DNA of 33,836 bases, from positions 1 to 33,836 of the forward strand of contig CANQJK010000014.1 of NCBI GenBank assembly GCA_947624235.1, read 5' to 3'. The notes beneath the pieces were generated by a model. It worked only from the letters and a program-made list of their open reading frames with translations. It was not told where the DNA came from and made no database searches. Shown piece after piece: positions 4,005 through 27,300 of this stretch. Within the stretch, counting starts at the first letter, position 1, and each line of letters begins with the position of its first letter. Made by a program: the position numbers and the translations under genes. Origin of the DNA: an uncultured Clostridia bacterium (GTDB taxonomy: Bacteria > Bacillota > Clostridia > Christensenellales > CAG-314).

Positions 4005-4016
4005 GTTTTACAACTC

Positions 4017-4847: not shown

Positions 4848-4854
4848 TGCACTT

Positions 4855-4883
4855 ATTATACAATAAACAATTTATTTTATCAA
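4855..4883 (-). promoter_or_regulatory. Sigma-70-type promoter abutting the start codon
   Basis: On the minus strand, -35 TTGATA (4883-4878), a 17-bp spacer, and -10 TATAAT (4860-4855) preceded by TG. Only 7 bp separate the -10 from the ATG at 4847, so the expected start of transcription coincides with the start codon. Confidence 0.72.
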
Positions 4884-4990
4884 CTGTTTTGAACAGGTTG
4901 CACACCGCTTGCGTTTTGAAGTTTGCGTTGCGACCTTTGCATGCGCGAGGTTGGCGTCGCTATTCGCGATGATGTGTCGCACCGTTTGCG

Positions 4991-5134
4991 ATGTCGTTGT
5001 GCACTGTTTGCGACGATGTTTCGATATGAGATTTTGTCCTAAACGCATGACGTCCTGCCGTTTGACAAGATTTTTGTTGAAATGCAATGTCGTTGCGCAC
5101 TGTTGCGACGTTGTTTCGATACGAGACTTTTTCG
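4991..5134. repeat. Direct repeat pair in the intergenic region
   Basis: A segment of about 48 bp beginning ATGTCGTTG and containing GCACTGTT(T)GCGACG and TTTCGATA occurs at 4991-5039 and again at 5087-5134, 96 bp apart and about 85% alike. The surroundings (4910-5130) are rich in TTGCGACG-like words that recall the decamer arrays at 14171 and 16701, but here I see no fixed 10-bp register. No gene is supported between 4848 and 5490. Confidence 0.6.
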
Positions 5135-5135
5135 T

Positions 5136-5176
5136 AAAAAAGGGTGAAGTTCGCACACTGAGTACAAACTTCACCC
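5136..5176 (-). terminator. Rho-independent terminator for leftward transcription
   Basis: On the minus strand, the perfect 10-bp stem GGGTGAAGTT / AACTTCACCC (5176-5167 and 5151-5142) has a 15-base loop and is followed by six T (5141-5136). It lies downstream of the phage head module ending at 5492 and probably ends that transcript. Confidence 0.85.
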
Positions 5177-5292
5177 GAAAAATTTAGTTTCCAAGTGTCC
5201 CGTAGAGAACACGAACATTCCTCACGAAAGCGCTAATACATATCCACCGAGAACAAAACACATTTCCGAAACCGGTAGTCATAAAAATGTTC

Positions 5293-5486
5293 CTACAAGT
5301 GGCGACCTGCGCGTCACTTGTAGCCCTCCCCGGGGATGCCGGGGGTATGGGAGACACCGGCGAAGTTCTAAACAATGAACAACCGGGCAGGTTGTTCCGC
5401 AGTAGTCCGACCAAGTCGGCGCGCTCTTCGCGCGCCCCGTAGGGGTAAGGTTGCGTAGTCAACCCAACCGACTTGCGTTTGGTCGG
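5293..5486. other. Hairpin-rich, possibly structured non-coding RNA
   Basis: Five or more consecutive stems fill this 194-bp stretch. They are CTACAAGTG/CACTTGTAG (5293-5301 with 5315-5323), CCCCGG/CCGGGG (5328-5333 with 5339-5344), AACAACC/GGTTGTT (5378-5384 with 5390-5396), and a branched unit closed by CCGACCAA/TTGGTCGG (5407-5414 with 5479-5486). The branched unit encloses GGCGCGC-TCTTC-GCGCGCC (5418-5436) and GGTTG/CAACC (5449-5453 with 5460-5464). It lies between the last head gene and its terminator, so it would be in the 3' part of that transcript. I do not match it to a known RNA family. Flanking sequence at 5260-5290 is a reversed piece of the dispersed repeat family. Confidence 0.5.
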
Positions 5487-5491
5487 ATAAT

Positions 5492-6424
5492 TTACGGTAC
5501 AAGTGTCGTGTTTACCCAATCCACAAAGCCCGAGTAGTACGCGCCCAAATTGTTGCGCACAAAGGAGTCTATCGACAGCACAAAATTGCCCTCGTCCCGC
5601 GTGTAGGAAGAAAACGTGTCGATAAACAGGTTGTATTTTTCCCGCTCTATCATGTCGCGGAAGCCCGTTTCTCCCAACTGCTGATACAGTTTTTGGTTCT
5701 GCTCGGCGCGTTCCTCAGCGTAACGCCAGGCGCTTTCGTATGCCCTTTCGCGAGAATATTGGTAGCGCTGTTCCTTCTCTTCCAGACTGTTGTTGTACTT
5801 GATGATGCTTATTCGCCGTGATTCCTCGCTGTCTGCAAGCTTTTGGTAGGCTTTGGCAAGACGGGCAAGGCGGTCCTCTTCCAGTGCGTCGCAACTTTGC
5901 TGGTACAGTTGCTCCTCGTCCTCTTCTGCGCGGGTGATGAGTTCCCTTTCTGCCTGCGCGTCGGTGTTGGCTCGGCGAACGTTTTCCTGATATTTTGTTG
6001 CGCAGTCGTCCAATGCGGACGTCGCCGTGGAACTGAACGACAAGCCGTGATTTACCAACTTGCGATGTATCGTCGCCTGCTCTACGCCGTAGTCGTCGGC
6101 AAGGTTTCGGCAGGTGACTTCCAACTGCGCGCTCAACTTGTCCCGTTGAAGGGCAAAACTTTTGAGCTTTGTAGCGTGGCTTTTGTCCAGTGCGCTCTGC
6201 TTGGTGATGGTGGCGGAGGCGATCTCCTGTTCGGCAAGGGCGGTAAGTTCCTCTTCCGACTTGGGAACGTAGTCCAACTTTTCCAAATTGAGGCTGGGCG
6301 GAAGGTTGAGTTGCGGTTCCACCACGTCCGTGCTGTACTTGATGTCCACTTCGCGACAGCGGTTTTTGAGTTCCTCGTATTCGCTACGCAACTGCTCCAT
6401 TCGTTGGGAAGAAATGCTGGGCAT
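5492..6424 (-). CDS. Coiled-coil phage protein, last gene of the head module
   Basis: This 310-residue protein is mostly predicted helix, with long charged heptad-like stretches (about residues 60-265, rich in Glu, Arg, Gln and Leu) and a short non-helical C-terminus. The ATG at 6424 has a good site, GGGGAGGAG, and lies 3 bp beyond the stop of the preceding beta-propeller-like gene. I cannot assign a family. By position (portal, scaffold, coat, adaptor, hub, then this) it occupies the place of the P22 gene 26 needle or of the ejection proteins. Needle proteins are slender trimeric coiled coils, which fits the composition. A role as a minor virion or ejection protein is inference from order only. 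Confidence 0.72.
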   Translation of the reverse strand: MPSISSQRMEQLRSEYEELKNRCREVDIKYSTDVVEPQLNLPPSLNLEKLDYVPKSEEELTALAEQEIASATITKQSALDKSHATKLKSFALQRDKLSAQLEVTCRNLADDYGVEQATIHRKLVNHGLSFSSTATSALDDCATKYQENVRRANTDAQAERELITRAEEDEEQLYQQSCDALEEDRLARLAKAYQKLADSEESRRISIIKYNNSLEEKEQRYQYSRERAYESAWRYAEERAEQNQKLYQQLGETGFRDMIEREKYNLFIDTFSSYTRDEGNFVLSIDSFVRNNLGAYYSGFVDWVNTTLVP

Positions 6425-6427
6425 AAA

Positions 6428-7654
6428 CTACTCCTCCCCGTAAACGCGCGCGGACAACCTGACGCTGTCTATATCCATGTCTTCCGACTGCAACTCCAAC
6501 GCAAATTGCTTGCCGTAGGCGGATAGTCGCAGGCTTTGCAAGCCGTTTTTTCCGCTGAGGGTGTACAGCCGTTTGACGCCGTCCGCTTCCACAAACACGT
6601 CGGCGTTTTGCCTTGTGCGGATGTACAGGCGGTCGAGATACTTTGTGCGCCCGATGCCAAAATGGATGTTTTCAAAGCGCACGCAGGCGTTTCCGCCCTC
6701 TTCCAAAACGTACAGCTTGCCCTGACGTGTGCCGTAGACGGTGTTGCCGTCCGAGCAAAGATAGTCGAATCCCTCGGCGAACACGCCCTTTATCCTGCCC
6801 TCTTTGACGTCCAACAGCAGGGTGATGTCGTTTTGCGCACCGCCCTTGCGACGGCAGGACACAAGGTAGCAATTGCCCTGTCGGCAAGCCGTGGCTGTGG
6901 AAAAGTCGGCAAATTCCGTAAGGTTTGCGAAAATTCTTTCCGCTTTGGCGGAGCCTGTCATCTTGCGCAGACCGCTGTCGGTGGCGAACACCGCGCAGTC
7001 CCCCATGTAGACGGCGGAACTCGGGCTTACGTTGCCCATTCCCCTTGCAAAGGGGTAAAATTGCGACTCGATGTCCTCTCCATCGGGGCAATACACATAG
7101 CATGTGTCCCCCAAAAGGTACAACTGTTTGCCCGCAGAAAGCACAGCGGAGCACTTGTCGTGCGCAAAGATCTTTTGTCCGCTCAGCCACTTGCTGGGTT
7201 GGGCGGGATCGCTTGCCACCAATTCCCTTTCGTCCACTCCCACCAGTCTGTCACCGCATACGGCGACGGAATTGTACCCGTAGGGGTTGATGAGCGTAGC
7301 CGTTTCGCCCAGCGTGTAGGTGCCTATCTTGACGCCGGAAAACACCACGCCGTTGTTGAAAACCGTGCAGGAGCCGTCCTGTCCGCCCTTGGTGACAAGG
7401 CGCGTGGCTTCCCCCTCAAAAAGGGTGTACACGCCGTCCTCGGCAAGGACGTACAACTTGTTTTGCCAAAAGAGCAAGGGCTTTACGGCTTTGGGAGCAA
7501 ATTGCGCCTCGACAAACTGCCCTGCCGAGCGGTAACTTTTGTTTACTCTCACGCCGTCGCACACTTCTGCCTTGTCCTCCAACGTAACGTCAAAGGTCTC
7601 GACGCATCGCGTTTTGGCGATATGGGGTAGGTTTTTGGGCAATATCACCCTCAT
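6428..7654 (-). CDS. Beta-rich phage structural protein, possible P22 gp10-like tail hub
   Basis: This 408-residue protein consists of repeated short beta-strand phrases of the type KLYVLAEDGVYTLF, QLYLLGDTCYVYC and KLYVLEEGGNACVRF, spaced about 40-50 residues apart as in beta-propellers. An open frame extends further upstream to 8002, but the start is set at the ATG at 7654. That ATG overlaps the stop of the adaptor gene (TGATG) and follows a G-rich ribosome site inside that gene, giving translational coupling. The upstream 116 codons are the shadow of the adaptor gene. In P22 the beta-propeller hub gp10 (472 residues) directly follows the adaptor gp4, the same order as here. Assignment to the tail hub is therefore inference from fold-like repeats plus position. 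Confidence 0.78.
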   Translation of the reverse strand: MRVILPKNLPHIAKTRCVETFDVTLEDKAEVCDGVRVNKSYRSAGQFVEAQFAPKAVKPLLFWQNKLYVLAEDGVYTLFEGEATRLVTKGGQDGSCTVFNNGVVFSGVKIGTYTLGETATLINPYGYNSVAVCGDRLVGVDERELVASDPAQPSKWLSGQKIFAHDKCSAVLSAGKQLYLLGDTCYVYCPDGEDIESQFYPFARGMGNVSPSSAVYMGDCAVFATDSGLRKMTGSAKAERIFANLTEFADFSTATACRQGNCYLVSCRRKGGAQNDITLLLDVKEGRIKGVFAEGFDYLCSDGNTVYGTRQGKLYVLEEGGNACVRFENIHFGIGRTKYLDRLYIRTRQNADVFVEADGVKRLYTLSGKNGLQSLRLSAYGKQFALELQSEDMDIDSVRLSARVYGEE

Positions 7655-8202
7655 CACCACCACCCCCTGACAGGCAGGCGCAAGGCATACTGCGTACTGC
7701 AACACACTGCCAACGCGTCGCGAAAACGGTCGTCCCATTGGCGGGCAAGATCCCAATCGCCCGTTACGGCGTAGTACTCGCGTAGCACTCCGTACACAAA
7801 CACCCTGTCCGTTATGCGTTGGGAAGGAAGCACCACTTCGCTGTCCCAACTTACCTCGTCGGGCAGGCGCGCGTAGCACATGTTGAACAGACCGTCCCTT
7901 TCCACCCACAGCTTGTTGTCGCCGTAGCGAAAATGCACGTCCTGTCCTTCGCCGTCCACAAGGGATAGCACGCGACACATTTTGTAGGCGGAGGTGTCGC
8001 AAAAACCATCCTTAACTTCCACCACCGTCTTGCGGAGCGCCTGCGCATAACTGCGGTACAGCTCCTCCAACACCGTGTTGCAACACTCCACCAGTTTGCG
8101 CGCACGGCTGTCGTCGGGTGTGTTGACAAGCACAAAATAGGTGGAGGGAAAGTCCAGATCCGCCAACTCTCCGCATATTTTTACAATTTCTTTAACTTTC
8201 AT
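7654..8202 (-). CDS. Phage head-tail adaptor / head completion protein (P22 gp4-like position)
   Basis: A 182-residue protein with an alpha-helical N-terminal half (KLVECCNTVLEELYRSYAQ) and the C-terminal phrase ITDRVFVYGVLREYYAVTGD, typical of adaptor proteins that dock under the portal (the P22 gp4 / gp6-like connector superfamily). Its length is close to the 166 residues of P22 gp4. The ATG at 8202 has an AGGAG site and overlaps the preceding gene by 11 bp; its stop codon overlaps the next start. The tight coupling and position after the coat protein support a connector role. The sequence similarity is recalled rather than searched. Confidence 0.72.
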   Translation of the reverse strand: MKVKEIVKICGELADLDFPSTYFVLVNTPDDSRARKLVECCNTVLEELYRSYAQALRKTVVEVKDGFCDTSAYKMCRVLSLVDGEGQDVHFRYGDNKLWVERDGLFNMCYARLPDEVSWDSEVVLPSQRITDRVFVYGVLREYYAVTGDWDLARQWDDRFRDALAVCCSTQYALRLPVRGWW

Positions 8203-8515
8203 TTTTTCTCCTCATTTCACTTGTGACACTGCCTGCGCGTTCCGCAATGTCGCACGCAAGACGTCTGTCCAAACGGGCGTTGTGCTCTTCCACTTCGCGC
8301 AACAGTCTGTCGGCATTTTGCACCGCCGTGTATCGCGCGTAGTCCACCGCTCTTGCGTCCAGCTCGTCAAAGGGGAGCGCAAATTGCATGCTCCCCCGCG
8401 ACGCACTGTGCACCTCGTAACGGCGAAGCCTGCCGTTGTAGTACAGCCGATAGTCGTCGTTGACGGCACGGAGTCTCCAAGCAATGTCAAATAGGTCCTC
8501 CGTTATCAATATCAT
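8192..8515 (-). CDS. Small phage protein of unknown function
   Basis: A 107-residue soluble, highly charged protein, beta-rich at the N-terminus (MILITEDLFDIAWRL, LYYNGRLRRYEVHS) and helical at the C-terminus (LLREVEEHNARLDRRL). I chose the ATG at 8515 because GGAGAC lies 5 bp upstream; an ATG 24 bp further upstream has no such site. It sits between the major capsid and adaptor genes, where decoration, head-closure and minor capsid proteins are often encoded. No family is recognised. Confidence 0.7.
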   Translation of the reverse strand: MILITEDLFDIAWRLRAVNDDYRLYYNGRLRRYEVHSASRGSMQFALPFDELDARAVDYARYTAVQNADRLLREVEEHNARLDRRLACDIAERAGSVTSEMRRKNES

Positions 8516-8604
8516 TTTGTCTCCTTTGCGCAAAAGCAAGGCTCCTTAACTTTTTACGCGTCTACGCATAGCCCTTTTGCGCGTTTTGAGGTTGCAAACT
8601 GCCC

Positions 8605-9768
8605 TTACGCTTCCGTAATTCCGCTTATCATTGCCTGACCGATGGGTCTGTCGCAAATGAGGTCGGCGTACTTGACCAGCGTCGCCGTGTAGACGGGCTT
8701 GTTGGGCACCTGTTTGATGATGCGTCCGTCGTCCCCTTCCAGCCAGCGCCAGTCGCAAAGTTGATGCAGGTGGAAATCCGACGTGTTCAATATGTACATC
8801 GTTCCCTTGGGTGCAAAGCGATCGGACACAACGGGTATGCCGTTGTAGGATATGGCTTTGTAACCGCCCTGCAAGTTCATCACGTCTATGTTGGTGCGGT
8901 TGGTGATGAGGTAGTCCTGATAGGCGCGTTTCACTCCGCCCGAGCACACGATGAAGTCTGCCTGCGAGCCTGCCGTTTCGTCGATGGCATCGATGGCCTT
9001 TTGAATGGTGACGTCGTTCAAGGTTTCCGCCGTCTTTTTGTAGGGCGTCAACCACTTGTTGGAAGCGCGTTTAAGCCCGTAGAGCGTTTCGGAAGAGCCG
9101 AATATTGCGGAAAGTCCCGTAATTTCCTTGTTGTAACTGCCCTGAACGGTGAGGAAGTCGTCCGCCGTGACGGTGCCCGTCAAAGTCGCGCCCGAAAGGG
9201 TTATCTTGTTGGCGTCGCGGTCCACGTCCGTTATGCGACGGGCAGATATCACCGCCGTTTTGCCTGTGTTGCCTATGACGTCCACCAACATGCCTTCCAT
9301 GACGTTAGTGACGGCGTCCACCGTCAGTTCGTTACCGCTGACTGCCGTTACCGTGCACAGTTTTCCGCTACCGTCGCCGAAAAGCATGCGCCCGAAGTTG
9401 AACTTGGACGCGCGGATAAGCCCTTCCATTTCCGCTTGAAGCAGATTGACGAATGCGCCCGAACTGTCTGCGCTGGCGCGAATTGCCTTGTCGGAAATTT
9501 CCACCGTGCCGTAGAGGTTTTTAAGCGTTAGCACAAATTGCGCGTAGTTGTTGCCTGCCGAGAGGGGCAATTCCCCGTCCTCGGTGCCTGCGCCGATACC
9601 GCCGTTTATGCCAAAGGGCGCAAGTTTGCGAATTTCCTTTCCCCACACGTCGCTGGACGTCTGTTCGATACGGGCGAGAAGGGGGTTTACTGCCGTGTTG
9701 AGCTGTTCTGCCACCACGCCGAGATAAAGTGTTTTTAGTGCGTTGTCTGCACTTGTAAGCGTTACCAT
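8605..9768 (-). CDS. Phage major capsid protein (HK97-fold type)
   Basis: This 387-residue protein has features of an HK97-fold coat protein: an N-terminal helix leading into LLARIEQTSSDVWGKEIRKL, a beta-hinge region (YAQFVLTLKNLYGTVEISDK), a spine-helix region at about residues 90-125, and a C-terminal P-domain-like part (ADFIVCSGGVKRAYQDYL, YNGIPVVSDRFAPKGTMYIL). A beta-rich insertion at about residues 130-215, full of Thr, Val and Gly, resembles the extra domain seen in several podovirus coat proteins. No N-terminal delta domain or protease gene is visible, and a separate scaffold is encoded just upstream. The ATG at 9768 has an AAGGAG site. Confidence 0.9.
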   Translation of the reverse strand: MVTLTSADNALKTLYLGVVAEQLNTAVNPLLARIEQTSSDVWGKEIRKLAPFGINGGIGAGTEDGELPLSAGNNYAQFVLTLKNLYGTVEISDKAIRASADSSGAFVNLLQAEMEGLIRASKFNFGRMLFGDGSGKLCTVTAVSGNELTVDAVTNVMEGMLVDVIGNTGKTAVISARRITDVDRDANKITLSGATLTGTVTADDFLTVQGSYNKEITGLSAIFGSSETLYGLKRASNKWLTPYKKTAETLNDVTIQKAIDAIDETAGSQADFIVCSGGVKRAYQDYLITNRTNIDVMNLQGGYKAISYNGIPVVSDRFAPKGTMYILNTSDFHLHQLCDWRWLEGDDGRIIKQVPNKPVYTATLVKYADLICDRPIGQAMISGITEA

Positions 9769-9780
9769 GTTTGTTTCTCC

Positions 9781-10203
9781 TTATTTGAAATATTTTTTTG
9801 CCAATTCCGACGCTTCCTTGAGTGTCTTGGGGCGATTTGGCGGTGCCACAGACACATTTCCACCGCCCGTCATGACGGTGGGAGGCGCACTCGGGGCAGA
9901 CGTTGCGTTGTCGTCGGCTTGCGCAACATCGGGGACTGTCGCCCCATCCTCCGTCGAGGCGCGCGTCTCTGTGGGCGGTGACGAAGGCTGTCCTTCGCTT
10001 GTACCGCTTGTCTCAATTGCTATCGCGCTCGTTTGTTCATTTTGAACGTCCGCTACTGCTTCCGTTTGCTCCGTTCCCTTTGAGGCGAGGGCGATAGATC
10101 TTTCCAAGGCGGAGAGTTGTTGACACTTTTGCGTAAAACTTTTTTCCAGTTCCGTGTAGCCTTTGAGCAACTCTTCCGCAGAATTGAATTTTCCGTAATC
10201 CAT
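9781..10203 (-). CDS. Phage scaffolding protein
   Basis: This 140-residue protein begins MDYGKFNSAEELLKGYTELE, the pattern of small phage scaffolds. It continues with a coiled coil (about residues 10-40) and then a Thr/Ser/Pro/Ala-rich, probably disordered middle. It ends with a basic helix (PKTLKEASELAKKYFK) of the kind that contacts the coat protein. It lies immediately upstream of the coat gene with an AAAGGAG site, the standard position between portal and coat. Scaffolds guide procapsid assembly and are released or degraded before packaging. Sequence alone is weak, but position and layout agree. Confidence 0.85.
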   Translation of the reverse strand: MDYGKFNSAEELLKGYTELEKSFTQKCQQLSALERSIALASKGTEQTEAVADVQNEQTSAIAIETSGTSEGQPSSPPTETRASTEDGATVPDVAQADDNATSAPSAPPTVMTGGGNVSVAPPNRPKTLKEASELAKKYFK

Positions 10204-10245
10204 TTTTTTACTCCTTTTGTCGTTATTTGCAGGACGTAGTCGCGT

Positions 10246-12138
10246 TTAAGCGTTTTCGTCCGTCGCTTTCAACGCACCGCTTTGCAAAAATTGCTTGTGC
10301 TTTTCGATGTGGGCAAGGATCTTGTCCCGCACCGTTTTGTCCAAGCGGTCGATATCGCGGGATATGATGTAGCGCGTGTGTTCCTCTATGTGCAAGGCGT
10401 GATCGTCCACGGGCAGGACCTCGGCGCAGTCGATATCGGTGTTTTCCCGCTCGGCGCGCGCGATGTGCAGTTGAGTGATGTCCTGCGACGCTTCCCAGTT
10501 GCCGAAGCCCATCATCTGCAACACCTTTGCCTTGGAACTTGCCGACAATTTGCCGTCGCCGTCGGACAGTATTCCCGCTTTGAGCAGGTAGAGAAGCATG
10601 GTCCTGCGCGTTGCGGGGCTGTCGCTCAACTCGTTTTCCGTTTCGAAAACGATGTCGTCGGAACCTATGTCCGAACCGGTAAAGTAGAACACTTCTGCGC
10701 TGTTTTGCCCGTCGGAATACCTGATCAACTTGTCCGCCTTGACAAATTGCTTGTACATTCTGAGCAGGTACTGCGCTATGCGCTTGATGCAGTACTTGAC
10801 GCTGTCGGCGGATATCGCCAGACGTATGTCGTCCTGCTCGGCGATGAGTTGAAGGGCAAGACCGCTTGTCACCTGCGTGGGAGTGGCGCTGTTTCGGGCA
10901 AATTCGGACACGCCCGACACGGTGATGAACTCTTTGAGCAGTTGCTCCTCTTCCGCCGTGAAGTCGTCGGGCACCTTTCCGCTGTCCATGAGGGCAGGTT
11001 TTTGCGCTCCCTGACGGTACACCAATATCTTGCCGGGGGACAATCCCTCCTCTTCCAGATTGTCCGTGTCCACCGAGCCGTCCTCCACCGTCAACACGCC
11101 CATTGCAAGGCGGTTGAGAAATTCGTGCTTACGGTTTTTGACGGCGTTGTAGGCGCGCTGAATGGGAATGACGCGCTCCACCATACTCGTCCCCCAAAAA
11201 CAGCCTGCCTGTTCGAGGGATATCTGGCGCACAAAGGGGTAGGAGTAACTGTCGTCGTCCCCCAGTCGGTAGGGAAGTTCGCCCGCATACAGTAGCGTGT
11301 TGCCTGCGACGATTTCCAACTTGCCGTGGGGATATTGCTTGGTGGGCTTGGTGTAGCGCTCTATCACCAACACTTGGTCGGGCTTGGTCTCCTTGGTGAC
11401 GCAGGGCACGGCAGAATTGTACCCCAGTCCGCCCACGCCTTCCACGCCGTCCAGCGCAAACACTTTGACCGTTTCGCCCGCAATTTCCGCACCCCATATG
11501 TCCAAAACCTGCTGTGAGGAATACACTTTGGCATGGATGACGGACGCACATTCGTCAAGGGACGGCGTGACGTTACTATCGGGGTAGATCTCAAAGGGAG
11601 AGCACACGGACAGGCGCGCCTCGCCTGCTTCGGCATCCCAACTCAACTTGTAAAACGCCGTTCCGCACACTTCGCTCCACACCGTTGCGCGTCCCACCGC
11701 CTCTTCCAGACGCACCCTTTCGCGAGCGCCTGCCAGTATCTTTGTGGACAGCTTTGCCGAGTTGATATCCGCCTCGCTGTTGCTGAACGGGCGGGCAATG
11801 GGCTTGGGGCGCACATGGTCCAAACGGGATATGCGCGTCTCCACAATGGTGGCAACGTGGTTGAACACCTGCTTTTCCTGCCAAAAGTAGTACTTGTCCT
11901 CCTGCTCCACCTCTCCGCGCGGAGTGATGACGCAATATTGATTGCCCATGACAAAGTTCATGTTGAGCATCCAACTCAACTCGTAGGGACGGCGCATTTT
12001 CTGTCGCGCTTCAAAATCCTTTTTGACGTCGCGCACAATGTCCTCTGCGCTTTTGCCAAACAGACAAGTTTTGTTTAACGTAGGGGGCGTTGTTGCGTTT
12101 TGCCCGTCATTGTCTATGTAGTGCGTTTGTTTACTCAC
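10246..12138 (-). CDS. Phage portal protein (P22-like family)
   Basis: A 630-residue protein matching the large podovirus portal type. It has an N-terminal RPYELSWMLNMNFVMGNQYC segment and FNHVATIVETRISRLDHVRPKP (split here as two short phrases), followed by AYNAVKNRKHEFLNRLAMG, SGVSEFARNSATPTQVTSG and a long helical C-terminus. Portals form the dodecameric ring through which DNA is packaged. The start is GTG at 12138 with AGGAGG 7 bp upstream, and the gene overlaps the preceding zinc-finger gene by 8 bp. Length and order (terminase, portal, scaffold, coat) fit the P22-like class. Confidence 0.92.
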   Translation of the reverse strand: MSKQTHYIDNDGQNATTPPTLNKTCLFGKSAEDIVRDVKKDFEARQKMRRPYELSWMLNMNFVMGNQYCVITPRGEVEQEDKYYFWQEKQVFNHVATIVETRISRLDHVRPKPIARPFSNSEADINSAKLSTKILAGARERVRLEEAVGRATVWSEVCGTAFYKLSWDAEAGEARLSVCSPFEIYPDSNVTPSLDECASVIHAKVYSSQQVLDIWGAEIAGETVKVFALDGVEGVGGLGYNSAVPCVTKETKPDQVLVIERYTKPTKQYPHGKLEIVAGNTLLYAGELPYRLGDDDSYSYPFVRQISLEQAGCFWGTSMVERVIPIQRAYNAVKNRKHEFLNRLAMGVLTVEDGSVDTDNLEEEGLSPGKILVYRQGAQKPALMDSGKVPDDFTAEEEQLLKEFITVSGVSEFARNSATPTQVTSGLALQLIAEQDDIRLAISADSVKYCIKRIAQYLLRMYKQFVKADKLIRYSDGQNSAEVFYFTGSDIGSDDIVFETENELSDSPATRRTMLLYLLKAGILSDGDGKLSASSKAKVLQMMGFGNWEASQDITQLHIARAERENTDIDCAEVLPVDDHALHIEEHTRYIISRDIDRLDKTVRDKILAHIEKHKQFLQSGALKATDENA

Positions 12139-12355
12139 GGTTTGCCTCCTCTACGCGCTTGTCCATTTGACGCTTTATCGCGTTTTTGGGGCTTTTGGGC
12201 ACAGTCATTGCCCTGCCGTCCGCCGACAGCCTTGCAAGGCACTGCGCGCACAAAAAGCACTTGTTTTGCCGTCCCTTTGTATCAAAGCAGAACTGCGCGT
12301 CGTTTTTGCAGTCCCTCACGTCGCATTTGGTCTTGGTAGTAATTGCATTTATCAT
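12131..12355 (-). CDS. Small zinc-finger-like protein
   Basis: This 74-residue basic protein has four cysteines arranged as CDVRDC (residues 11-16) and CFLCAQC (34-40), which look able to bind a zinc ion. It ends in a basic helix, KRQMDKRVEEANRE. The ATG has an AAAGGAG site 9 bp away, and the frame overlaps the portal start. Small CxxC proteins are common beside terminase genes in clostridial phages, where they may assist packaging or regulate the late genes. The role here is unknown. Confidence 0.72.
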   Translation of the reverse strand: MINAITTKTKCDVRDCKNDAQFCFDTKGRQNKCFLCAQCLARLSADGRAMTVPKSPKNAIKRQMDKRVEEANRE

Positions 12356-12382
12356 TGTTTTTTCTCTCCTTTTACAAGTTTT

Positions 12383-12676
12383 TCAGTTGTCCCCGTCCGT
12401 GACGGGAGAATTGTCCACGTCTTGAAGCAAACGTATCAGGCGCAGTTTTTCCACTTGAAGTTGTTCGTCCGTCATTTCCGTCACGTCCGTTTGCTCGTTT
12501 AGTTTGAGTAGCGCCGTTATGGCAGAGACGTCGGGCAAAACGTGCTTGGTGACCGTCTTGCTCTTGACTAATTTGCGCTCGCCGTCCACTACGACGTATT
12601 CGTCCGTCTTTTCGCGATAGGTAAAGCCCTTGGCTTTTTTGTAAAGCACCTTTACAAGCAGTTCTTTTGCAGTCAT
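12383..12676 (-). CDS. Terminase small subunit-like protein
   Basis: A 97-residue protein starting at the ATG at 12676 (site GAGGAG). This ATG overlaps the large-terminase stop as ATGA, so the two are coupled. The central phrase KSKTVTKHVLPDVSAITALLKLN resembles the C-terminal part of small terminase subunits, where a beta-hairpin is followed by PPD-x-A-x-x-x-WLKN. The usual N-terminal DNA-binding helix-turn-helix is missing, so it may be a truncated or specialised form. It follows rather than precedes the large subunit. Assignment is moderate; it could also be an unrelated packaging accessory. Confidence 0.58.
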   Translation of the reverse strand: MTAKELLVKVLYKKAKGFTYREKTDEYVVVDGERKLVKSKTVTKHVLPDVSAITALLKLNEQTDVTEMTDEQLQVEKLRLIRLLQDVDNSPVTDGDN

Positions 12677-14091
12677 AGTTTGTCTCCTCGCGCTTTGCGT
12701 ATCAGTCGTTCCTTGTCCAGCTGTATCAATGTTTTGGCAGGTTTTGGCGCGGTGCGTTCGTCTAAATTGCACACATAGTAGCGCAACTCGTCCATGGCGT
12801 GATCGTCCTTTTTGACGGGCGCGTCTCCATTGCCCCAAAAGTAGCCCTTTATTTCCCTTATCATGTTGACGCAGGAACGGAAAATGTACAGTTTGGGCGG
12901 ACCGTTGAGGGGTTTGAGCAACGCCTTTACCCTGTTGATGCCTGCGTACAGTCCCTTGTTGACGCGCGTGTTGACGGATATGCCCTGCTCGGCAAACAGT
13001 TCCGCCGTGCTCCTGACGCCGTTTAGCGTGCGCTGATCCGCCGCGCTGTCCATAAGCACCGACAGCCTGTTGAAGCGATCCTTCTTCCAGTTGAGGCGCT
13101 CGGAAATTTCCTTTATCTTCTCCGCGTGGTAGGCAATATCCCTTTTTGCCTCGTAGTGTTCGGCAATGACATACACGTTGCCGTCAAAGTCCCTTGCGTA
13201 CCAGTGACAGGACAGCGGATTGTTCAACCCCGGATCCACCGATATGGCGTCCTGCCACTCCTCGGGGATGTCCCTCGGCTCTATCACGTTTGCCTCGCTG
13301 AACTCTGCGTACACCAATCCGCCGTTTTGGGTGAAACGTCCGTAACGACGGCTTTCGAGGGCGGTTTCGGACATGCTTTCCGTCATCAGTTCCAACTCCT
13401 CCTTGCTCAAAAAGGGGTTGTCGTTCCACTCCATAAACTCGTACCACACCTCTTTGGAACGGTGCTTGTTGAGGTATATTTCGTCGTACACCCAACTTAA
13501 ACCTTTGAGGGGCGTCATGGTGCCGAATATGTGCCCTTTGCGGTCCAATATCCTCATGCGACACTCCTCGTACACGTCCTGTGGCGGTTCTTCGTCGAAC
13601 CACACAAAGTCGAGGCTGGTGCCCTGAAATTTTTCTCGTCCCGCTTCGCAACTTTTGAAGGCTATTTTGGATATTCCGCCGAACACGTTTCGTATGGCTA
13701 TGCAGTCGATGACGCCGTATTCGGGACTGCTTTTGGATCCGCTCACCATCACGATGTCCGCTATCCAACTTTTGTCCAGATAGTACAATATCTTTTGTTG
13801 CGCCACATCCCTTTGCACCTGTTGCGACAGGGATACCACCCAACAGCAAACGTCCTTTTTGTTGGGACGAAAGGGATGTATCCCCCGCGCCAGCCACACC
13901 GTTTCCACCGCGCCGCACTCGGTTTTTCCGCTTCGGTTGCCCCCGAAAACCCACCTGTTGCGTTTGAGACAACGATGAAACGCCATTTGCTTGGCGTGCA
14001 CTTTGCCCTTGTTGTAGCGCGCAAGCGGACTTTGCTCCCTGCGACGTTGTTCTCGTTCGATATCTTGTATGCGCGTGATAATTTCGTTCAT
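12673..14091 (-). CDS. terL: Phage terminase large subunit
   Basis: A 472-residue packaging motor. The ATPase shows Walker A GGNRSGKT (residues 50-57), Walker B FVWFDEEP (162-169) and coupling motif GTMTPLKG (190-197). The RNase H-like nuclease shows acidic residues in ISVDPGLNNP (Asp286), VLMDSAAD (Asp348) and KKDDHAMDELRYY (Asp430, Asp434). All key residues are present, so the enzyme looks intact. The start is the ATG at 14091, with AAGGAGTG 6 bp upstream; an upstream in-frame ATG at 14136 lacks a site. It is the first gene of the leftward head operon, and the 10-bp-periodic array begins about 80 bp upstream. No obvious promoter lies between the array and the gene. Confidence 0.94.
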   Translation of the reverse strand: MNEIITRIQDIEREQRRREQSPLARYNKGKVHAKQMAFHRCLKRNRWVFGGNRSGKTECGAVETVWLARGIHPFRPNKKDVCCWVVSLSQQVQRDVAQQKILYYLDKSWIADIVMVSGSKSSPEYGVIDCIAIRNVFGGISKIAFKSCEAGREKFQGTSLDFVWFDEEPPQDVYEECRMRILDRKGHIFGTMTPLKGLSWVYDEIYLNKHRSKEVWYEFMEWNDNPFLSKEELELMTESMSETALESRRYGRFTQNGGLVYAEFSEANVIEPRDIPEEWQDAISVDPGLNNPLSCHWYARDFDGNVYVIAEHYEAKRDIAYHAEKIKEISERLNWKKDRFNRLSVLMDSAADQRTLNGVRSTAELFAEQGISVNTRVNKGLYAGINRVKALLKPLNGPPKLYIFRSCVNMIREIKGYFWGNGDAPVKKDDHAMDELRYYVCNLDERTAPKPAKTLIQLDKERLIRKARGDKL

Positions 14092-14170
14092 TTCCACTCC
14101 TTGTGCGGGCGACACCGCGATGGGTATTGCTCGCACGTTGATTTGCCCTTACCGCTCGAACGTTCTGCGT

Positions 14171-14860
14171 TTCGACGTTTTGCGACGGATTTTGATGTTT
14201 TGCGACGTTACTCGACGTTGCTCGACGATTTGCGATGTTTTTTGACGTTACTCGACGTTGTGCGAAGATGTTCGACATTGCTCGACATTGTGCGAAGATT
14301 TCAGACGTTTTGCGACGTTTTTCGCAGATGTTCGACTATGTTCGAAGTTGTTCAACATTGTTTGAAGATTTTCGGCACTATTTGAAGTTGTTCAACATTT
14401 TGCGACGTTGTTCGAAGATGTTCGACTATGTTCGAAGTTGTTCAACATTGTTTGAAGATTTTCGACACTATCGGAAGATGTTCAACATTCTGCGACGTTG
14501 TTCGACGTTATCCGACGTTGTTTGATGTTGTTCGACGTTGTTTGTCAAAATGCGATTTTTGTCGACCGCAAGCGACATTTTGCAACGTCAATCGACGCTA
14601 ACCGACGGTTATCGACGGCTGTCGGCGTTATTCGATATAAATCAACGCAAATCGACGGCTGTCGACCGTTTCCGAATTTTATCAACATTATTCGACGACT
14701 ATCGAACTATATCGACCGTTTCCGAACTATATCGACGTTATTCAACGTTATGCGACATCAACAGACCGCTCTCGACGTTTTTCGAACTCTATCGACATTT
14801 TTCAAACTATATCGACGGATATCGGCGTTATTCAGTGTTTTTTGACGTTATTCGACGGAA
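14171..14860. repeat. Decamer array 1: about 69 units in strict 10-bp register
   Basis: A degenerate decamer with consensus TTCGACGTTN (plus strand) repeats without a single insertion or deletion for 690 bp. The GA at positions 4-5 of the unit is almost invariant, and T/C and G/C at the flanks are frequent. Ten is not a multiple of three, so the open frames running through it (10-residue repeats, in several frames) are by-products rather than genes. The core is the reverse complement of the GTCG core in the array at 16701. It lies between the start of the phage terminase gene and the SH3-like gene at 15016. Confidence 0.93.
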
Positions 14861-15015
14861 ATTTGCTCGTCGCATAAGCCTCGTTGTGCCCGTTGTCGAT
14901 GTTCTTTGCGCATAGCGTAGCCGAATGTCAATTCCTGCCCCATATCGTCACAACTCGGCAAAAACCTCACCGTCAAAGAGGTTATACTTTGCCTTGTATC
15001 GCGAGGGAGGAAACC

Positions 15016-15741
15016 ATGCTCAAAAAGATCTTGATCGCCGTTAGTCTGTTGCTGTCCGTTTGGCTGTTCGCCTGTCCGTTCGTCGCCCGTGCGCAATCGT
15101 CCGACTGGGCGCGCATTGTGGATGACGACGTGTATCTGTACAGCAACGCCGACGGCGCCACCCGTTGTTTCGTCTTGGAAAAGTCCTACTACGTTGAGAT
15201 ATTGGGCGAAGAGGACAACATGTACCGCGTGTCCGTTATGCAAAACGATAGGGACTTCCCCAAAATAACGGGGTACGTTTACAGAAATTCCGTAACCCCT
15301 TGCGCCCCGCCCGTTGCGCCCTACTATCCCACCGAAAAGGTGACTGTGACGCGCGGATCGGCATCCGTGAGACTTTCTCCCACCCAAAACGCCCAAACGG
15401 AAATCGTTGCGCTCAACTCCCAACAGCTCAGTTACTACGGAAGTTTGTTGAGCTACGGCACAAAGTGGTACTATGTGTACTACGGCGATGTGTTAGGATA
15501 CGTCGAGGCGGACACAGTAAGCGCGCCCAACATATTGCCTCATCCTACGCCCCTGCCCTCCAAACCCGTGGTGACGCCACCCGCCGAACAACCGCAACAA
15601 CCTGCCGAGACATCCAAAACGCCCACCGCGGAAATTTTGCTCATTGTGTTTGTAGTGGTGCTTGCTGTGGGACTTACCCTTGCGCTGTTTCTTCCCGGTA
15701 ACATCAAAAAAAAGAACAGCGTGTTCGAAACGGATATCTGA
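15016..15741 (+). CDS. Secreted SH3-like protein with C-terminal membrane anchor
   Basis: A 241-residue protein. The start is the ATG at 15016 with GGGAGG 6 bp upstream; the frame is open further upstream without a site. Residues 1-26 form a signal peptide (MLKKILIAVSLLLSVWLF, cut near ARAQ). Two SH3b-like units follow, about residues 30-95 and 105-165, the second ending in the typical KWYYVYYGDVLGYVEADTV. A Pro/Thr-rich spacer (175-207) precedes a transmembrane helix (about 208-230) and a short basic tail (IKKKNS). SH3b domains usually bind peptidoglycan or peptides outside the cell. It shares its whole layout with the larger protein at 18358-20256, and both have a decamer array upstream. 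Confidence 0.87.
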   Translation: MLKKILIAVSLLLSVWLFACPFVARAQSSDWARIVDDDVYLYSNADGATRCFVLEKSYYVEILGEEDNMYRVSVMQNDRDFPKITGYVYRNSVTPCAPPVAPYYPTEKVTVTRGSASVRLSPTQNAQTEIVALNSQQLSYYGSLLSYGTKWYYVYYGDVLGYVEADTVSAPNILPHPTPLPSKPVVTPPAEQPQQPAETSKTPTAEILLIVFVVVLAVGLTLALFLPGNIKKKNSVFETDI

Positions 15742-15779
15742 CAATGCCCCACCGCCTCGCGCCGTAATGCGAGCGCGCC

Positions 15780-16027
15780 CGAGACTGACGAAATTGTCGC
15801 ACCGTTGCCTTTGAACGTATGACGTCATCCGAGTTGCGCCTCGGGACAGACAAATATGTCTCACAGTTGCCATTGAACGCGTGACGTCATCAAAGTTGCG
15901 CCTCGGGACAGACAAATATGTCTCACAGTTGCCATTGAACGCGTGACGTCATCAAAGTTGCGCCTCGGGTAGACGAAAACATGTCGCACTGTTGCCGTTG
16001 AACGCGTGACGTCATCAGAGTTGAAGT
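15780..16027. repeat. Tandem repeat, four units of about 62 bp, with palindromes
   Basis: Units start near 15780, 15840, 15902 and 15964. The middle two are practically identical, the outer two diverged (60 and 64 bp). Each holds TGACGTCA (15820, 15882, 15944 and 16008), a perfect 8-bp palindrome. Units 2 and 3 also hold GACAAATATGTC, an inverted repeat GACA-N4-TGTC. The array lies between the convergent ends of the SH3-like gene (+) and the helix-turn-helix gene (-). It could be a multi-site operator, a replication or partition site, or a passive repeat. Confidence 0.85.
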
Positions 16028-16084: not shown

Positions 16085-16504
16085 TCACAAAAAGTGCTCG
16101 GCGTACCACTTTTCCGTTGCGCCCATTGAGTGCAAAGCGTCGCAGTACATGGCTCGGGCGTTGGTCAACATGCGAAACAGCGTCGATCGCGACACGTTCA
16201 ATTTGTCCGCAAGTTTGCGCTTGTCCGCCCCGCACATGTACACTGCCACCAGCAACGCGCGACGTTTGACGGGCAGGCGTCTCAGTGCTCCAAACACCTT
16301 TTCGACGTACTGCAACGTAATTTCCGATTGCTCGCACAGATGTTGTATCTGCTTTATCTGCCCTATCGTGCCCTCCTTCCACCCGTAGGTGTCGTAGGAA
16401 GAAAGCGCGACGTTTTTTATCTCCTCCTTCAACTGCATGGCGTGATTTTTCATCAAAAGAGCGCCTTTCAACATTTTCAATTCGTAGTTCACCTGCTCGT
16501 TCAC
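16085..16504 (-). CDS. Sigma-like helix-turn-helix protein, phage late-regulator type
   Basis: A protein of about 139 residues with a helical N-terminal half and, at about residues 79-123, a region resembling sigma-factor region 4 (LPVKRRALLVAVYM, then KLADKLNVSRSTLFRML). This layout and size match ArpU/RinA-type phage activators of late genes. The frame begins with GTG at 16504, but the AGGAGG there touches that codon, so initiation at the GTG at 16492, 11 bp after the site, may be more likely. In Gram-positive phages such regulators sit just upstream of the terminase genes, as here (TerL starts at 14091), although an oppositely oriented gene and two repeats intervene. The DNA target is unknown. 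Confidence 0.75.
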   Translation of the reverse strand: MNEQVNYELKMLKGALLMKNHAMQLKEEIKNVALSSYDTYGWKEGTIGQIKQIQHLCEQSEITLQYVEKVFGALRRLPVKRRALLVAVYMCGADKRKLADKLNVSRSTLFRMLTNARAMYCDALHSMGATEKWYAEHFL

Positions 16505-16700: not shown

Positions 16701-18100
16701 TAGCAAAAAGCAAGTTGTCGAAAGATGTTGGAAAAAGTTGGGATTTGTTGGGGATAGTCGAAATAAGTTTGAAATTGTAGGAAGTTGTTTGAAATTGTAG
16801 GAAGATGTATAAAACGGTCGGATAGAGTTTAGAATTGACGGATATTGTCGAGAATTGTTTAGAGTTGTTAAAAGATGTATAAAATCGTCGGGAAACAATG
16901 GAAATTGTTGGAAGATGTTTGGAATTGGCGGAAGATGTATAAAACGGTCGGATAGAGTTTAGAATTGGCGGATATTGTCGAGAATTGTTTAGAGTTGTTG
17001 GAAGATGTATAAAATCGTCGGGAAACAATGGAAATTGTTGGAAGATGTTTGGAATTGGCGGAAGATGTATAAAACAGTCGGAAAGAGTTGGGAATTGACG
17101 GAAGATGTATAAAATCGTTGGAAAGAGTTTGGAATTGTCGCAAGGTGCATAAAGCGGTCGGAAGTTGTATAAGATTGTCGGGAAACAAGGAGAATTGTTG
17201 GAAGATGTATAAAACGGTCGGAAAGAGTTGGGAATTGTTGGGGATAGTCGAAATAAGTTTGAAATTGTAGGAAGATGTATAAAGCGGTCGAAAAGAGTTC
17301 CGAATAGTCGAAAAACGTTCTGACTTTTCATAAGTTGTGGGAAATTGTCACAAGTTGCAAAAGATTGTTGTAAATAGTATATGATTGTCGCAAGGAGTAT
17401 AAAACGGTCGAAAACCGTTCCGAATAGTCGTAAATCATTCCGAATAGTCGCAAACCGTCGAAAGCATGTTGATATCTTCCACTACTGTCGAGAACGTGGC
17501 GTTCCGCTCCGTTTCGGTCGAATACACTCGGTTCGGATCGCAAAAGGGAATAAGTTTTCGGAAAACGTTTTGAATTGTCGGAAACCGTTTTAACTTTTCA
17601 CAAACCGTCGCAACTTTTCGTAAACAGTCGCATATCGTCGCAAATCGCACAAACATTTCATAAATCGTTTCAACTTTTCATAAATCATATCAAACTGTCG
17701 CTAATCGTTTTGAATTGTCGCAAGCCGTCGCAAATCATTCTAACTTGTTGTAAATCTTCGCAACTTGTCGCAAACCGTACAAACATTTCATAAATCGTTT
17801 CAACTTTTCATAAATCATATCAAACTGTCGCTAATCGTTCCGAACCGTCGCAACTTTTCAAAAAAACTTCACAACTTGTCGCAAATCGCACAAACATTTC
17901 ATAAATCGTTTCAACTTTTCATAAATCATATCAAACTGTCGCAACTTTTCAAAAATCTTCGCAAATTGTCGAAAATCGTTCCGAACCGTCGCAAGCCGTC
18001 GAAAATCATTCTAACTTGTTGTAAATCGTCGCAACTTGTCGCAACCTTTCATAAATCATCGTACCCTGTCGCAAATCGTTACAAATTGTCGAAAAAGGTC
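16701..18100. repeat. Decamer array 2: about 140 units in 10-bp register with one 1-bp slip
   Basis: The unit is GAAATTGTCG-like in 16701-17400 and CAAATCGTCG-like in 17400-18100. The register is kept from 16701 to about 17866, then shifts by one base at a run of seven A (17870) and continues in the new register to about 18100. Higher-order duplications respect the register: 16801-16930 repeats as 16931-17060 (130 bp, 13 units), GGGATAGTCG at 16751 recurs at 17241 (490 bp, 49 units), and AAACATTTCA at 17651 recurs at 17781 (130 bp) and 17892 (111 bp). Open frames on both strands in several frames are by-products of the repeat. Confidence 0.94.
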
Positions 18101-18192
18101 GGTTTGGGCAGGCAAAACAGCGTCGGAGCGACGTCCGCATCAAATTTGATGTCACAAAATGCAGAAATATTACTACAAATTGCAGAAAACTG

Positions 18193-18221
18193 TTGAAAAA
18201 AAGTTTAGTGTTTGATATACT
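18193..18221 (+). promoter_or_regulatory. Promoter of the large SH3-like surface protein gene
   Basis: -35 TTGAAA (18193-18198), 17-bp spacer, -10 TATACT (18216-18221), with an overlapping TATAAT at 18223-18228. It begins about 90 bp after the decamer array ends and leaves a leader of about 130 bases, which contains a weak CCCAAAA/TTTTGGG inverted pair. Confidence 0.68.
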
Positions 18222-18357: not shown

Positions 18358-20256
18358 ATGAAAAAATTCGTCGGAATTTGCATATGTCTATTGCTCGCAT
18401 TGACGTTTGTGATACCTACGGGCGCAATGGCGTCCGCCGTCGAATCAGACGCAGGCGACATAATATATTTTCTAAATCCGTCCGCTATTGCCGTGCAAGG
18501 AGACTACCTGTTTGTTGCGGATAACATCGAGGACGAAAAGTGCGTGATACTTTGCTTCAACATCGGCGGAGAAAAGCCCGTCTACAAATTTACGGAAGAG
18601 GTAGACGGCAAGGTGCTCAACCTCTCCGCAAAAAGCGAAGAGGACAACGGTTTGCGCATCTACGCTATATTTGCCGACAAGGTGACGGAATATCTGCTTT
18701 TGGACGAAAAGGCGCTTGCCGTAAGCAGGGTGTTCCACCTGGACGGCGTGGTAGACTTTACCTACGGCGTGATAAACACCGACGACGACAAGGGCGAATA
18801 CTACGCCACCAAGCAGGCGTTTTACAGCAGGGATCCGCGCATGAGCAACCCCGAAGAAACGGGCTACTTTGCTCCCATAGGTTTCGGTTCGCAAAGCGAC
18901 GTTAGCGGAGTGCTTGCCATCGGTCAATTTGTGTACTGCCTGTTCAAGTCGGACGGCACAGTCGTGTGTCAGCGTATCGACGGTCAAATAGGACGTCCTG
19001 CCAACCCCGCAACGGACGCGCTAAACAAAAACACTGCCATGCTCAGCGGAATATCCCCCGCCCCAACGGGACTGTTTGTGTGGAACGACGACTCGGGCGA
19101 ACAACATCCTGCGGTGTTTTCGGAAAGCGGAGTGTGGAACATCACCATATCGGGATCTCTCAGCGGTATCGATCCACTGCTCTCTCCCGACGATTACGAC
19201 TCGGAAGAGCACGGCAAGATCGTGGACGTCGAATCCAAGGACGGCGCGCTGTATGTGCTTAACAGCAACCACAAAATAGAGATCTACCGCAAAAGCGAAA
19301 CATCGGGCAAATACGAAAGCAACGCAACCGTTGGCACGGAGATATTCGACACCAAAGTGCCGACGCTTGCCGAACTTAACAGCTTCACATTGGTGAGGAG
19401 CACGGGCTACCCCACCAACATCGTGTTCAGGACGTCGGGAGAACGTAGCGTTGACAACCTCATTGAAGACGCCGAAGAATACATCGTGCTGGGCTACGAC
19501 GGCGACGAAAACAGCCCCTTCTACTATGTGCTTGTGGGAGACAGCTTCGGCTGGGTGAAAAAGAGCGACAACTCCGCAGGGGCGGATCAGGACAGCAAAC
19601 TGACGGTGGTAAACACCAAAATGAGCAACGACGACGTGGAGTACAAGTCCAAATTAAACTCTCTCAACGGCGTGTACATTGCACCGCTTCCGCGCAATTC
19701 CTTCCTGACGGCGGAATACTGGACGGTGTTGGAACAAACGGCTCAAACCATGACGGAAGTGACGCTGTTGCAACGCTTCACCGAGGGCAACGTCGTGTGG
19801 TACTACGTCCGCTACGGCGAAAACAAAATGGGCTTTGTGATGGAGGAAAACGTCGGCAAGTTCTACATCGAGGCAAACACGTCCAGCACCACCGTGGAAG
19901 GTCAACGCAAAGCCAACAGCGTGCTGTTTAGCTTTGTGCAGATGTACGACAACAACGATCCCGCCACCATGGACGAGGAACACCTTGCCTGCTTCACGGA
20001 CGGGACGGAAGTGCCACATTTGAAGTCTAACCAACGCATAACGCTGATAAAGACCTACGACAACGGCACGGCTTTGGTGCAGGTGATCTTCGGCAACGGT
20101 CAAACGGCAACGGGATATGTGTTTGCCGACAGACTGATAAGTCCCAACGCCCTCACCACCAACGCCATTTTCGGCTTGGTAGCAGTCGGCTTTGCCCTGC
20201 TTCTTGCCATGCTTATCACCGTGGTAGTCGTTAAGAAAAAGAAGGCGAAAAAATAA
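18358..20256 (+). CDS. Large secreted, membrane-anchored protein with propeller-like and SH3-like parts
   Basis: A 632-residue protein. The ATG at 18358 follows GAGGAA by 3 bases. Residues 1-26 are a signal peptide (MKKFVGICICLLLALTFVIP, cut near AMASA). Residues 35-330 contain repeated strand phrases such as AIAVQGDYLFVADN, LAIGQFVYCLFKSDG and DGALYVLNSNHKIEIYR, suggesting a beta-propeller. Residues 350-595 contain SH3b-like units ending FYYVLVGDSFGWV, VWYYVRYGENKMGFV and ALVQVIFGNGQTATGYV. A transmembrane helix (about 603-626) and a KKKKAKK tail end the protein, so it is anchored with the bulk outside. It shares signal peptide, SH3b and C-terminal anchor with the protein at 15016. Its function is unknown; sensing or binding of cell-wall material is a plausible guess. 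Confidence 0.87.
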   Translation: MKKFVGICICLLLALTFVIPTGAMASAVESDAGDIIYFLNPSAIAVQGDYLFVADNIEDEKCVILCFNIGGEKPVYKFTEEVDGKVLNLSAKSEEDNGLRIYAIFADKVTEYLLLDEKALAVSRVFHLDGVVDFTYGVINTDDDKGEYYATKQAFYSRDPRMSNPEETGYFAPIGFGSQSDVSGVLAIGQFVYCLFKSDGTVVCQRIDGQIGRPANPATDALNKNTAMLSGISPAPTGLFVWNDDSGEQHPAVFSESGVWNITISGSLSGIDPLLSPDDYDSEEHGKIVDVESKDGALYVLNSNHKIEIYRKSETSGKYESNATVGTEIFDTKVPTLAELNSFTLVRSTGYPTNIVFRTSGERSVDNLIEDAEEYIVLGYDGDENSPFYYVLVGDSFGWVKKSDNSAGADQDSKLTVVNTKMSNDDVEYKSKLNSLNGVYIAPLPRNSFLTAEYWTVLEQTAQTMTEVTLLQRFTEGNVVWYYVRYGENKMGFVMEENVGKFYIEANTSSTTVEGQRKANSVLFSFVQMYDNNDPATMDEEHLACFTDGTEVPHLKSNQRITLIKTYDNGTALVQVIFGNGQTATGYVFADRLISPNALTTNAIFGLVAVGFALLLAMLITVVVVKKKKAKK

Positions 20257-26824: not shown

Positions 26825-27300
26825 CGAAGTATTTTTTGCGCCCCCTGCCAAACGCAAGAACGCCTGCTTTGCGGAATTTGTACCGACTGCGCTGTCAAAC
26901 ATAGCACGCCTTTGCAAACAAGGAACCGCCTGTTTTGCGGAGTGTCGCACCGAACGGGTTAAATCGACGTCGGACATCTGCTTGCGTTACCGCGAGAAAC
27001 ACGCGCCCCGCTTTTGCAAACAAAAGATCGCCTGCCTGCCACACATCGCACGACTGCGCTGTCAAACATAGCACGCCTTTGCAAACAAGGAACCGCCTGT
27101 TTTGCGGAACGTCGCACCGAACGAGACAAATCGGCGTTGGATATCTGCTTGCGCCACCGCGAGAAACACACGCCCTGCTTTTGCAAACAAAAGATCGCTT
27201 GCCTGCCACACATCGCACGACTGCGCGTAAACTTGGCTTGCTTTTGCAAACAAAGAAACGCACGTTTTGCAGAACGTCGCACAGCCCACGCGGAAACGGT
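26825..27300 (-). repeat. Tandem repeats in the clpP leader
   Basis: About 2.5 units of 165-167 bp, each made of two related halves marked by TTTGCAAACAA at 26911, 27013, 27078, 27180 and 27243 (spacings 102, 65, 102, 63). Shared phrases include GTCAAACATAGCACGCC, CTGTTTTGCGGA, GTCGCACCGAACG and CACATCGCACGACTGCGC. A diverged half unit at 26840-26890 touches the clpP ribosome site. Long frames are open in several registers on both strands, which reflects composition rather than a gene. The region lies between a consensus promoter and clpP, so it should be transcribed. Confidence 0.85.

Follow-up and report, generated by a model that had tools for sequence, protein, structure and literature searches.

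Two arrays of a degenerate decamer run on opposite strands of the window (the whole stretch of 33,836 nucleotides analysed here, from an uncultured gut bacterium of the Clostridia), and we give an even chance to the reading, based on sequence comparison, that both arose by tandem expansion of an operator of the Spo0A-box type with decamer phasing. The arrays keep a 10-bp register, have the core nAAAnnGTCG in common, and resemble both Spo0A boxes and the promoters of Spo0A-family genes, and Spo0A-family proteins are encoded in these genomes. Array 1, overlooked in an earlier sequence-only reading of this DNA, lies between the gene of the terminase large subunit and that of a secreted SH3-like protein, and a small HTH gene and sec632 flank array 2.

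Table. Features of the window that bear on the two decamer arrays
Feature	Positions	Strand	Description
Major head protein (phrog_14242)	8605..9768	-	
P22/SU10-type portal protein	10246..12138	-	
Terminase large subunit	12673..14136	-	Upstream gap contains array 1
Array 1	14171..14862	-	69 decamers, consensus AAAAACGTCG, no internal slip
SH3-like (by eye) secreted protein	15016..15741	+	C-terminal membrane segment; between arrays 1 and 2
139-aa HTH protein	16085..16504	-	Weak Sigma70_r4_2 / Q-like anti-terminator similarity; flanks array 2
Array 2, block a	16701..17470	+	77 decamers, consensus GAAATTGT(T/C)G
Array 2, interruption	17471..17550	+	Decamer pattern disrupted; register resumes afterwards
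Array 2, block b	17551..17870	+	32 decamers, consensus CAAAT(C/T)GTCG
Array 2, register slip	17864..17871	+	Sole internal 1-bp slip of array 2
Array 2, block c	17872..18101	+	23 decamers, one-base shift
sec632 promoter	18180..18221	+	Decamer-phased boxes TTGCAGAAAA / CTGTTGAAAA, by sequence comparison
sec632	18358..20256	+	Predicted secreted 632-aa protein of unknown family; direction of transcription is away from array 2

Array 2 spans 16701–18105 in a strict 10.0-bp register, broken once by a 1-bp slip and once by an 80-bp interruption. Across 16701–18100, identity at lags of 10, 20, ..., 130 was 0.47–0.57 against 0.255 at other lags, and the Fourier peak stood at exactly 10.0, with 95 times the random expectation (10 at 10.1 and 5 at 9.9). 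These two measures confirm the 10-bp array described in the sequence-only reading. Its count of about 140 consecutive units is corrected to about 132 usable ones in three blocks (a–c). Dynamic alignment to a cyclic decamer profile placed the disrupted stretch at about 17471–17550 and the slip at about 17864. The wide base drift at fixed spacing that it described was borne out, with a mean mismatch to the consensus of 37% and the single slip. Lags of 20, 40, and 60 score above those of 10, 30, and 50, indicating that the units partly alternate, and larger blocks of 90–130 bp are duplicated in the arrays. The arrays are not obviously coding. A coding repeat was rejected because no block-wide frame is kept better than in column-permuted arrays, with the modest exception of 16701–17470; the longest open frame falls inside the permuted range in two blocks and is longer in that one (256 aa, p 0.013).

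Array 1 shows 29% mismatch to its consensus, 0 slips, and a Fourier signal of 44 times expectation at 10.0. Other tandem repeats in the window, which match at 75–88%, carry 1–8% indels, so that the combination of 29–37% mismatch with 0 and 1 slips provides the strongest argument for constraint on the arrays. In 400 kb sampled from the same genome, no further period-10 array was found, and whole-genome pattern and profile searches showed the arrays to be essentially confined to the window's contig, with one borderline match on C64. The idea of a motif over-represented throughout the genome, like uptake or orienting sequences, was rejected because TTGTCG and GTCG at 10 bp are unenriched in the 400 kb. 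An RNA family search of the window found a tRNA alone. The window also holds more minisatellites, at 1530–1896, 2123–2502, 15775–16023, and 26884–27282, with units of about 60–170, 91, 62, and 167 bp.

The Spo0A box has the core TGTCGAA, which is contacted at G2, C4, and G5 (PMC3485338), and nAAAnnGTCG is this motif in overlapping register. The array consensus is one position off it (CGTCGAA or TGTCGCA). Perfect copies of TGTCGAA number only five in the window arrays, and the majority of units have at least two mismatches; perfect boxes reach 13–36 times background there and about 117 times in an array of the congener G018, and one-mismatch boxes reach 7–13 times background, on one strand of each array. 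The contact positions are kept in array 1, at 0.70 (G2), 0.86 (C4), and 0.84 (G5), and in an array of G302, a genome from another family of the order; in array 2 the picture is mixed, with 0.91/0.62, 0.36/0.64, and 0.60/0.49 for the same three positions. In blocks a–c, the contacted C4 and G5 rank below the best-kept positions, and in recent duplicates substitution is weakly lower in the core, by counts that are non-independent. A 0A matrix built from the promoters of 18 spo0A genes in the family, most of them in the genus, correlated in register with the three array blocks at r 0.81, 0.85, and 0.79 (99.9% level of the null, 0.73); its sites were collected via TNCGAC near a conserved position, which makes it somewhat biased. 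In this family, TTGTCGAAAA stands at a constant position in the spo0A promoters.

MraZ binds three or four 10-bp tandem boxes, and the mraZ promoters of the genus have (AAAATGGTTN)3 at exact 10-bp spacing, matched by the array profile. The arrays could accordingly be read as MraZ operators, and block a does resemble the Mollicute-type MraZ site or matrix (r 0.75), the site being (AAAGTGKN3)3 (PMC5282649). However, the TGG of the box requires G at unit position 6, which is present in 2–12% of array units, and the correlation is near null for array 1 (0.58) and blocks b–c (0.64). With the TGG missing and a matrix fit of r 0.58–0.75, below the 0.79–0.85 of the 0A matrix, MraZ was rejected as the best binder, and we regard this identity as highly improbable.

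The earlier suggestion of a site recurring about once per turn of the helix holds. DNA has about 10.5 bp per turn, so that with units of strictly 10.0 bp the face rotates by roughly 17 degrees from each unit to the next. Strongly curved DNA had also been put forward. The phased bases would then curve the DNA intrinsically or draw a general nucleoid protein, with sequence identity secondary, and AAA indeed recurs about every 10 bp. Bends predicted from wedge angles and compared with shuffled sequence were raised in one of three blocks (17551–18100, 62.6 versus 38.7 ± 5.8 degrees) but at the shuffled level in 14171–14865 (44.7 versus 37.8 ± 6.2) and 16701–17470 (36.2 versus 40.9 ± 5.7), so that general curvature is unsupported in the latter two. 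Curvature moreover does not require conservation of GTCG, and an exact 10.0 differs from the planar-bend optimum. We consider it a very unlikely basis for the arrays.

For the Spo0A family, candidate binders are encoded in the genomes. The window's genome (G000) has a stand-alone Spo0A_C gene (C18:21962-22261), and most congeners encode full-length Spo0A. No full-length spo0A was found in the G000 assembly (95% complete, 94 contigs), and both spo0A neighbours and mraZ are likewise absent from it; loss of spo0A was not accepted on this account, and a missing contig is the likely cause. Spo0A_C proteins are encoded in 10 of the 10 genomes checked, a co-occurrence that is weak evidence because Spo0A is near-universal in these genomes. 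In the genus, the DNA-binding domain of Spo0A agrees with the solved domain 1LQ1 of Spo0A and retains an intact VERAIRHAIEVAW helix. As a separate observation, the Spo0A receiver of the genus (L309, L311, L318, and other congeners) is degenerate, having lost the acidic pair and carrying E at the position of the phosphorylated aspartate (VVITELMMSGEDG); ADDN/VDDN and VILDLVMP-type motifs are retained in the receivers of the family members L310, L315, and L334. It is possible that Spo0A of this genus is phosphorylation-independent.

A search profile trained solely on the window arrays and run over the family and order also found clusters of 2–8 decamers, located at the sec632 promoter, mraZ operators, spo0A promoters, and promoters of stand-alone Spo0A_C genes. 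The sec632 promoter lies 80–90 bp beyond array 2, in the same orientation; its second box overlaps the −35 element TTGAAA (18193–18198), separated by a 17-bp spacer from the −10 element TATACT (18216–18221), a spacing read off printed sequences. Upstream of the sec632 orthologues, TTTGnnGnAAAnTGTTGAAAAA is conserved in the genus, its two boxes being spaced by 10 bp. The spo0A promoter was matched in G018 and weakly in other congeners, and the promoter of a Spo0A_C paralogue in G235 contains several TGTCGAA boxes at 10 bp that the profile matched. Related phasing is seen at the promoter of the stand-alone Spo0A_C gene of G000 itself (profile match, E 0.044), and the Spo0A_C paralogue promoters of many congeners show TGT-N7-TGT-N7-TGT phasing. 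Since promoter geometry partly dictates 10-bp phasing, the phasing in promoters is only partly independent evidence. Three perfect TTGTCGAA boxes at 10-bp spacing were also seen in each of three viral contigs (L373:109-136, L375:5989-6016, and L372:3357-3384), directly upstream of a likely −10 element and gene start in L373 and L375.

The genus of the window's genome includes Candidatus Fimimonas merdipullorum; L208 (DVOC01000067.1) groups with Clostridia, and NCBI taxonomy puts Candidatus Fimimonas in Myxococcota. The terminase-SH3 and HTH-sec632 gaps measure 881 and 1853 bp here and 130–808 and 248–2060 bp in congeners, where most are much shorter and without a decamer array; in about 18 congeners the orthologous gaps had no arrays. 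Arrays of the same core were present elsewhere: in G018 within the phage operon (the terminase-portal and DUF7934-g4017 gaps), in G019 between convergent genes and off a promoter, and weakly in G024 and G013, all with a period near 10 and a looser register than in the window. Across the order, 13 of 297 genomes matched the array profile at E 1e-4. G302 has 23 decamers, 21 of which keep GTCG; clusters of 3–8 units, promoter-near or intergenic, occur in G161, G173, G262, G311, and G235; and the matches in G199, G185, and possibly G113 are coding. The HTH-sec632 gap of G022 (L155:5830-6640) has about 800 bp of a different quasi-periodic repeat with period 10.9/21.8 and variable unit length. In the same gap of G024, an extra ORF (L157:11026-11955) carries 23 copies of an 11-bp repeat (AAGCAAAACCG) in coding sequence, and this array was discounted as an intergenic one because it is inside an open reading frame.

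The sequence-only reading had taken absence from close relatives, or freely varying unit lengths in related genomes, as the mark of a passive repeat. Comparison of the relatives gave a divided answer: the nearest ones have no arrays at the orthologous gaps, whereas same-core arrays with a period near 10 occur elsewhere in G018, G019, and G302, and the varying unit length is that of the different unit at the G022 gap. A passive origin would start from a short two-box operator of the Spo0A or a similar type, tandem-duplicated in expendable intergenic DNA and drifting without function. The imperfect state of the majority of boxes, the array-less near relatives, and the weak protection of the core in duplicates make this a serious rival; the recent 90–130 bp block duplications, the looser array at the G022 gap, the several other minisatellites of the window, and the position of the G019 array between convergent genes also fit it. 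By itself, however, passive growth leaves unexplained the near-perfect register at 29–37% base mismatch and the reappearance of one core in distinct arrays, on either strand and in a different family. We hold it to be a substantial possibility, at well under an even chance.

The terminase, portal, and major head protein genes constitute a reduced phage-head module. The terminase is present in 40 of 41 family genomes and the RNase J-to-SSB neighbourhood is wholly syntenic in the congeners examined, so that the module looks vertically inherited. Across the family, the terminase, portal, head, and accessory genes of 3033–14136 (minus strand; loci L149–L168) are single-copy, and the phage-head genes are syntenic with the host genes for RNase J, SSB, and a deacetylase; the head protein is 75–92% identical and the internal virion protein about 30%. 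No integrase, tail, or lysis genes were identified in the module at 3033–14136, which may represent a gene transfer agent or a phage head that has been domesticated. Two gaps are kept in the genus, terminase-portal (300–800 bp; window 12139–12672) and head-internal virion protein (about 600 bp; window 8003–8604), and may hold unannotated small genes.

This setting, with array 1 directly upstream of the terminase, could point to a phage packaging or replication site, or to a plasmid or phage partition site of the ParR type, an analogy drawn in the sequence-only reading from the 10–12 bp repeats at ParR sites. Against it, no ParM/ParR family was detected by Pfam among about 19 window proteins, related terminases, whether from viral contigs or from other genomes, have no arrays beside them, and the same-core arrays of G019 and G302 lie away from a terminase in the stretches read. 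A phage-borne array was rejected: no period-10 array turned up at 80 terminase loci from viruses and 69 loci from genomes, and BLAST against phage and plasmid records gave no match. A partition or packaging role is extremely unlikely, and with a decamer that corresponds to the Spo0A box the ParR analogy is not supported. The companion idea of a protein binding head-to-tail on the repeats remains sensible, the candidate, judged from the sequence, being a Spo0A-type DNA-binding domain rather than ParR.

Under the Spo0A-box reading, every 10-bp step would be a degenerate TGTCGAA-like site, and the overlapping register is such that Spo0A-family DNA-binding domains, of full Spo0A or stand-alone Spo0A_C, could bind head-to-tail, one per turn. 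The promoter versions of 2–8 decamers in this order of Clostridia would have grown here to 69 and about 132 sites. A cooperative Spo0A-family lattice on mostly low-affinity sites may then sharpen or buffer expression of the flanking sec632, HTH, SH3, and terminase genes. An effect of such a lattice on flanking-gene expression is the most likely activity of the arrays; its binding, cooperativity, and influence on transcription are steps that we infer. A further and rather unlikely proposal is that the two opposed arrays, with roughly 200 phased sites of low affinity, act as a cooperative switch or titration sink through which the phage-head module, gene-transfer-agent-like and inherited vertically, is coupled to the Spo0A pathway. 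If bound, the arrays would be a naturally occurring system for testing what cooperative binding to weak sites in tandem does to a developmental switch, would link a domesticated phage-head module, present in almost all genomes of its family, to the Spo0A pathway, and would be, to our knowledge, by far the longest arrays of any master-regulator site in bacteria. If unbound, they would represent a clean case of an operator turned satellite with its helical phase frozen, which bears on the birth of regulatory repeats.

Among the closest known systems, ParR/parC sites are tandem 10–12 bp repeats bound by a multimer and have a similar unit length, but the arrays here are far longer and more degenerate. 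MraZ operators resemble the arrays in having promoter-sited direct repeats spaced exactly 10 bp apart; in this genus they consist of three AAAATGGTTN copies, whose TGG the arrays do not have. Bacterial satellites and minisatellites are likewise tandem, lineage-specific, and intergenic, with block duplications (surveyed in PMC6749651). Unlike them, the arrays described here combine a strict register at low identity with a single core at unrelated positions. Tandem 0A boxes at 10-bp spacing occur in Bacillus promoters, and the same arrangement is seen directly in the short clusters here. The Spo0A boxes of Bacillus and Clostridioides have the core TGTCGAA, A/T flanks, degenerate low-affinity variants, and sites in the spo0A promoter (PMC3485338), and the putative boxes here are alike in these respects. 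Known Spo0A promoters contain a few boxes, whereas 69 and about 132 putative ones stand in tandem here, mostly imperfect and beside a phage-head module.
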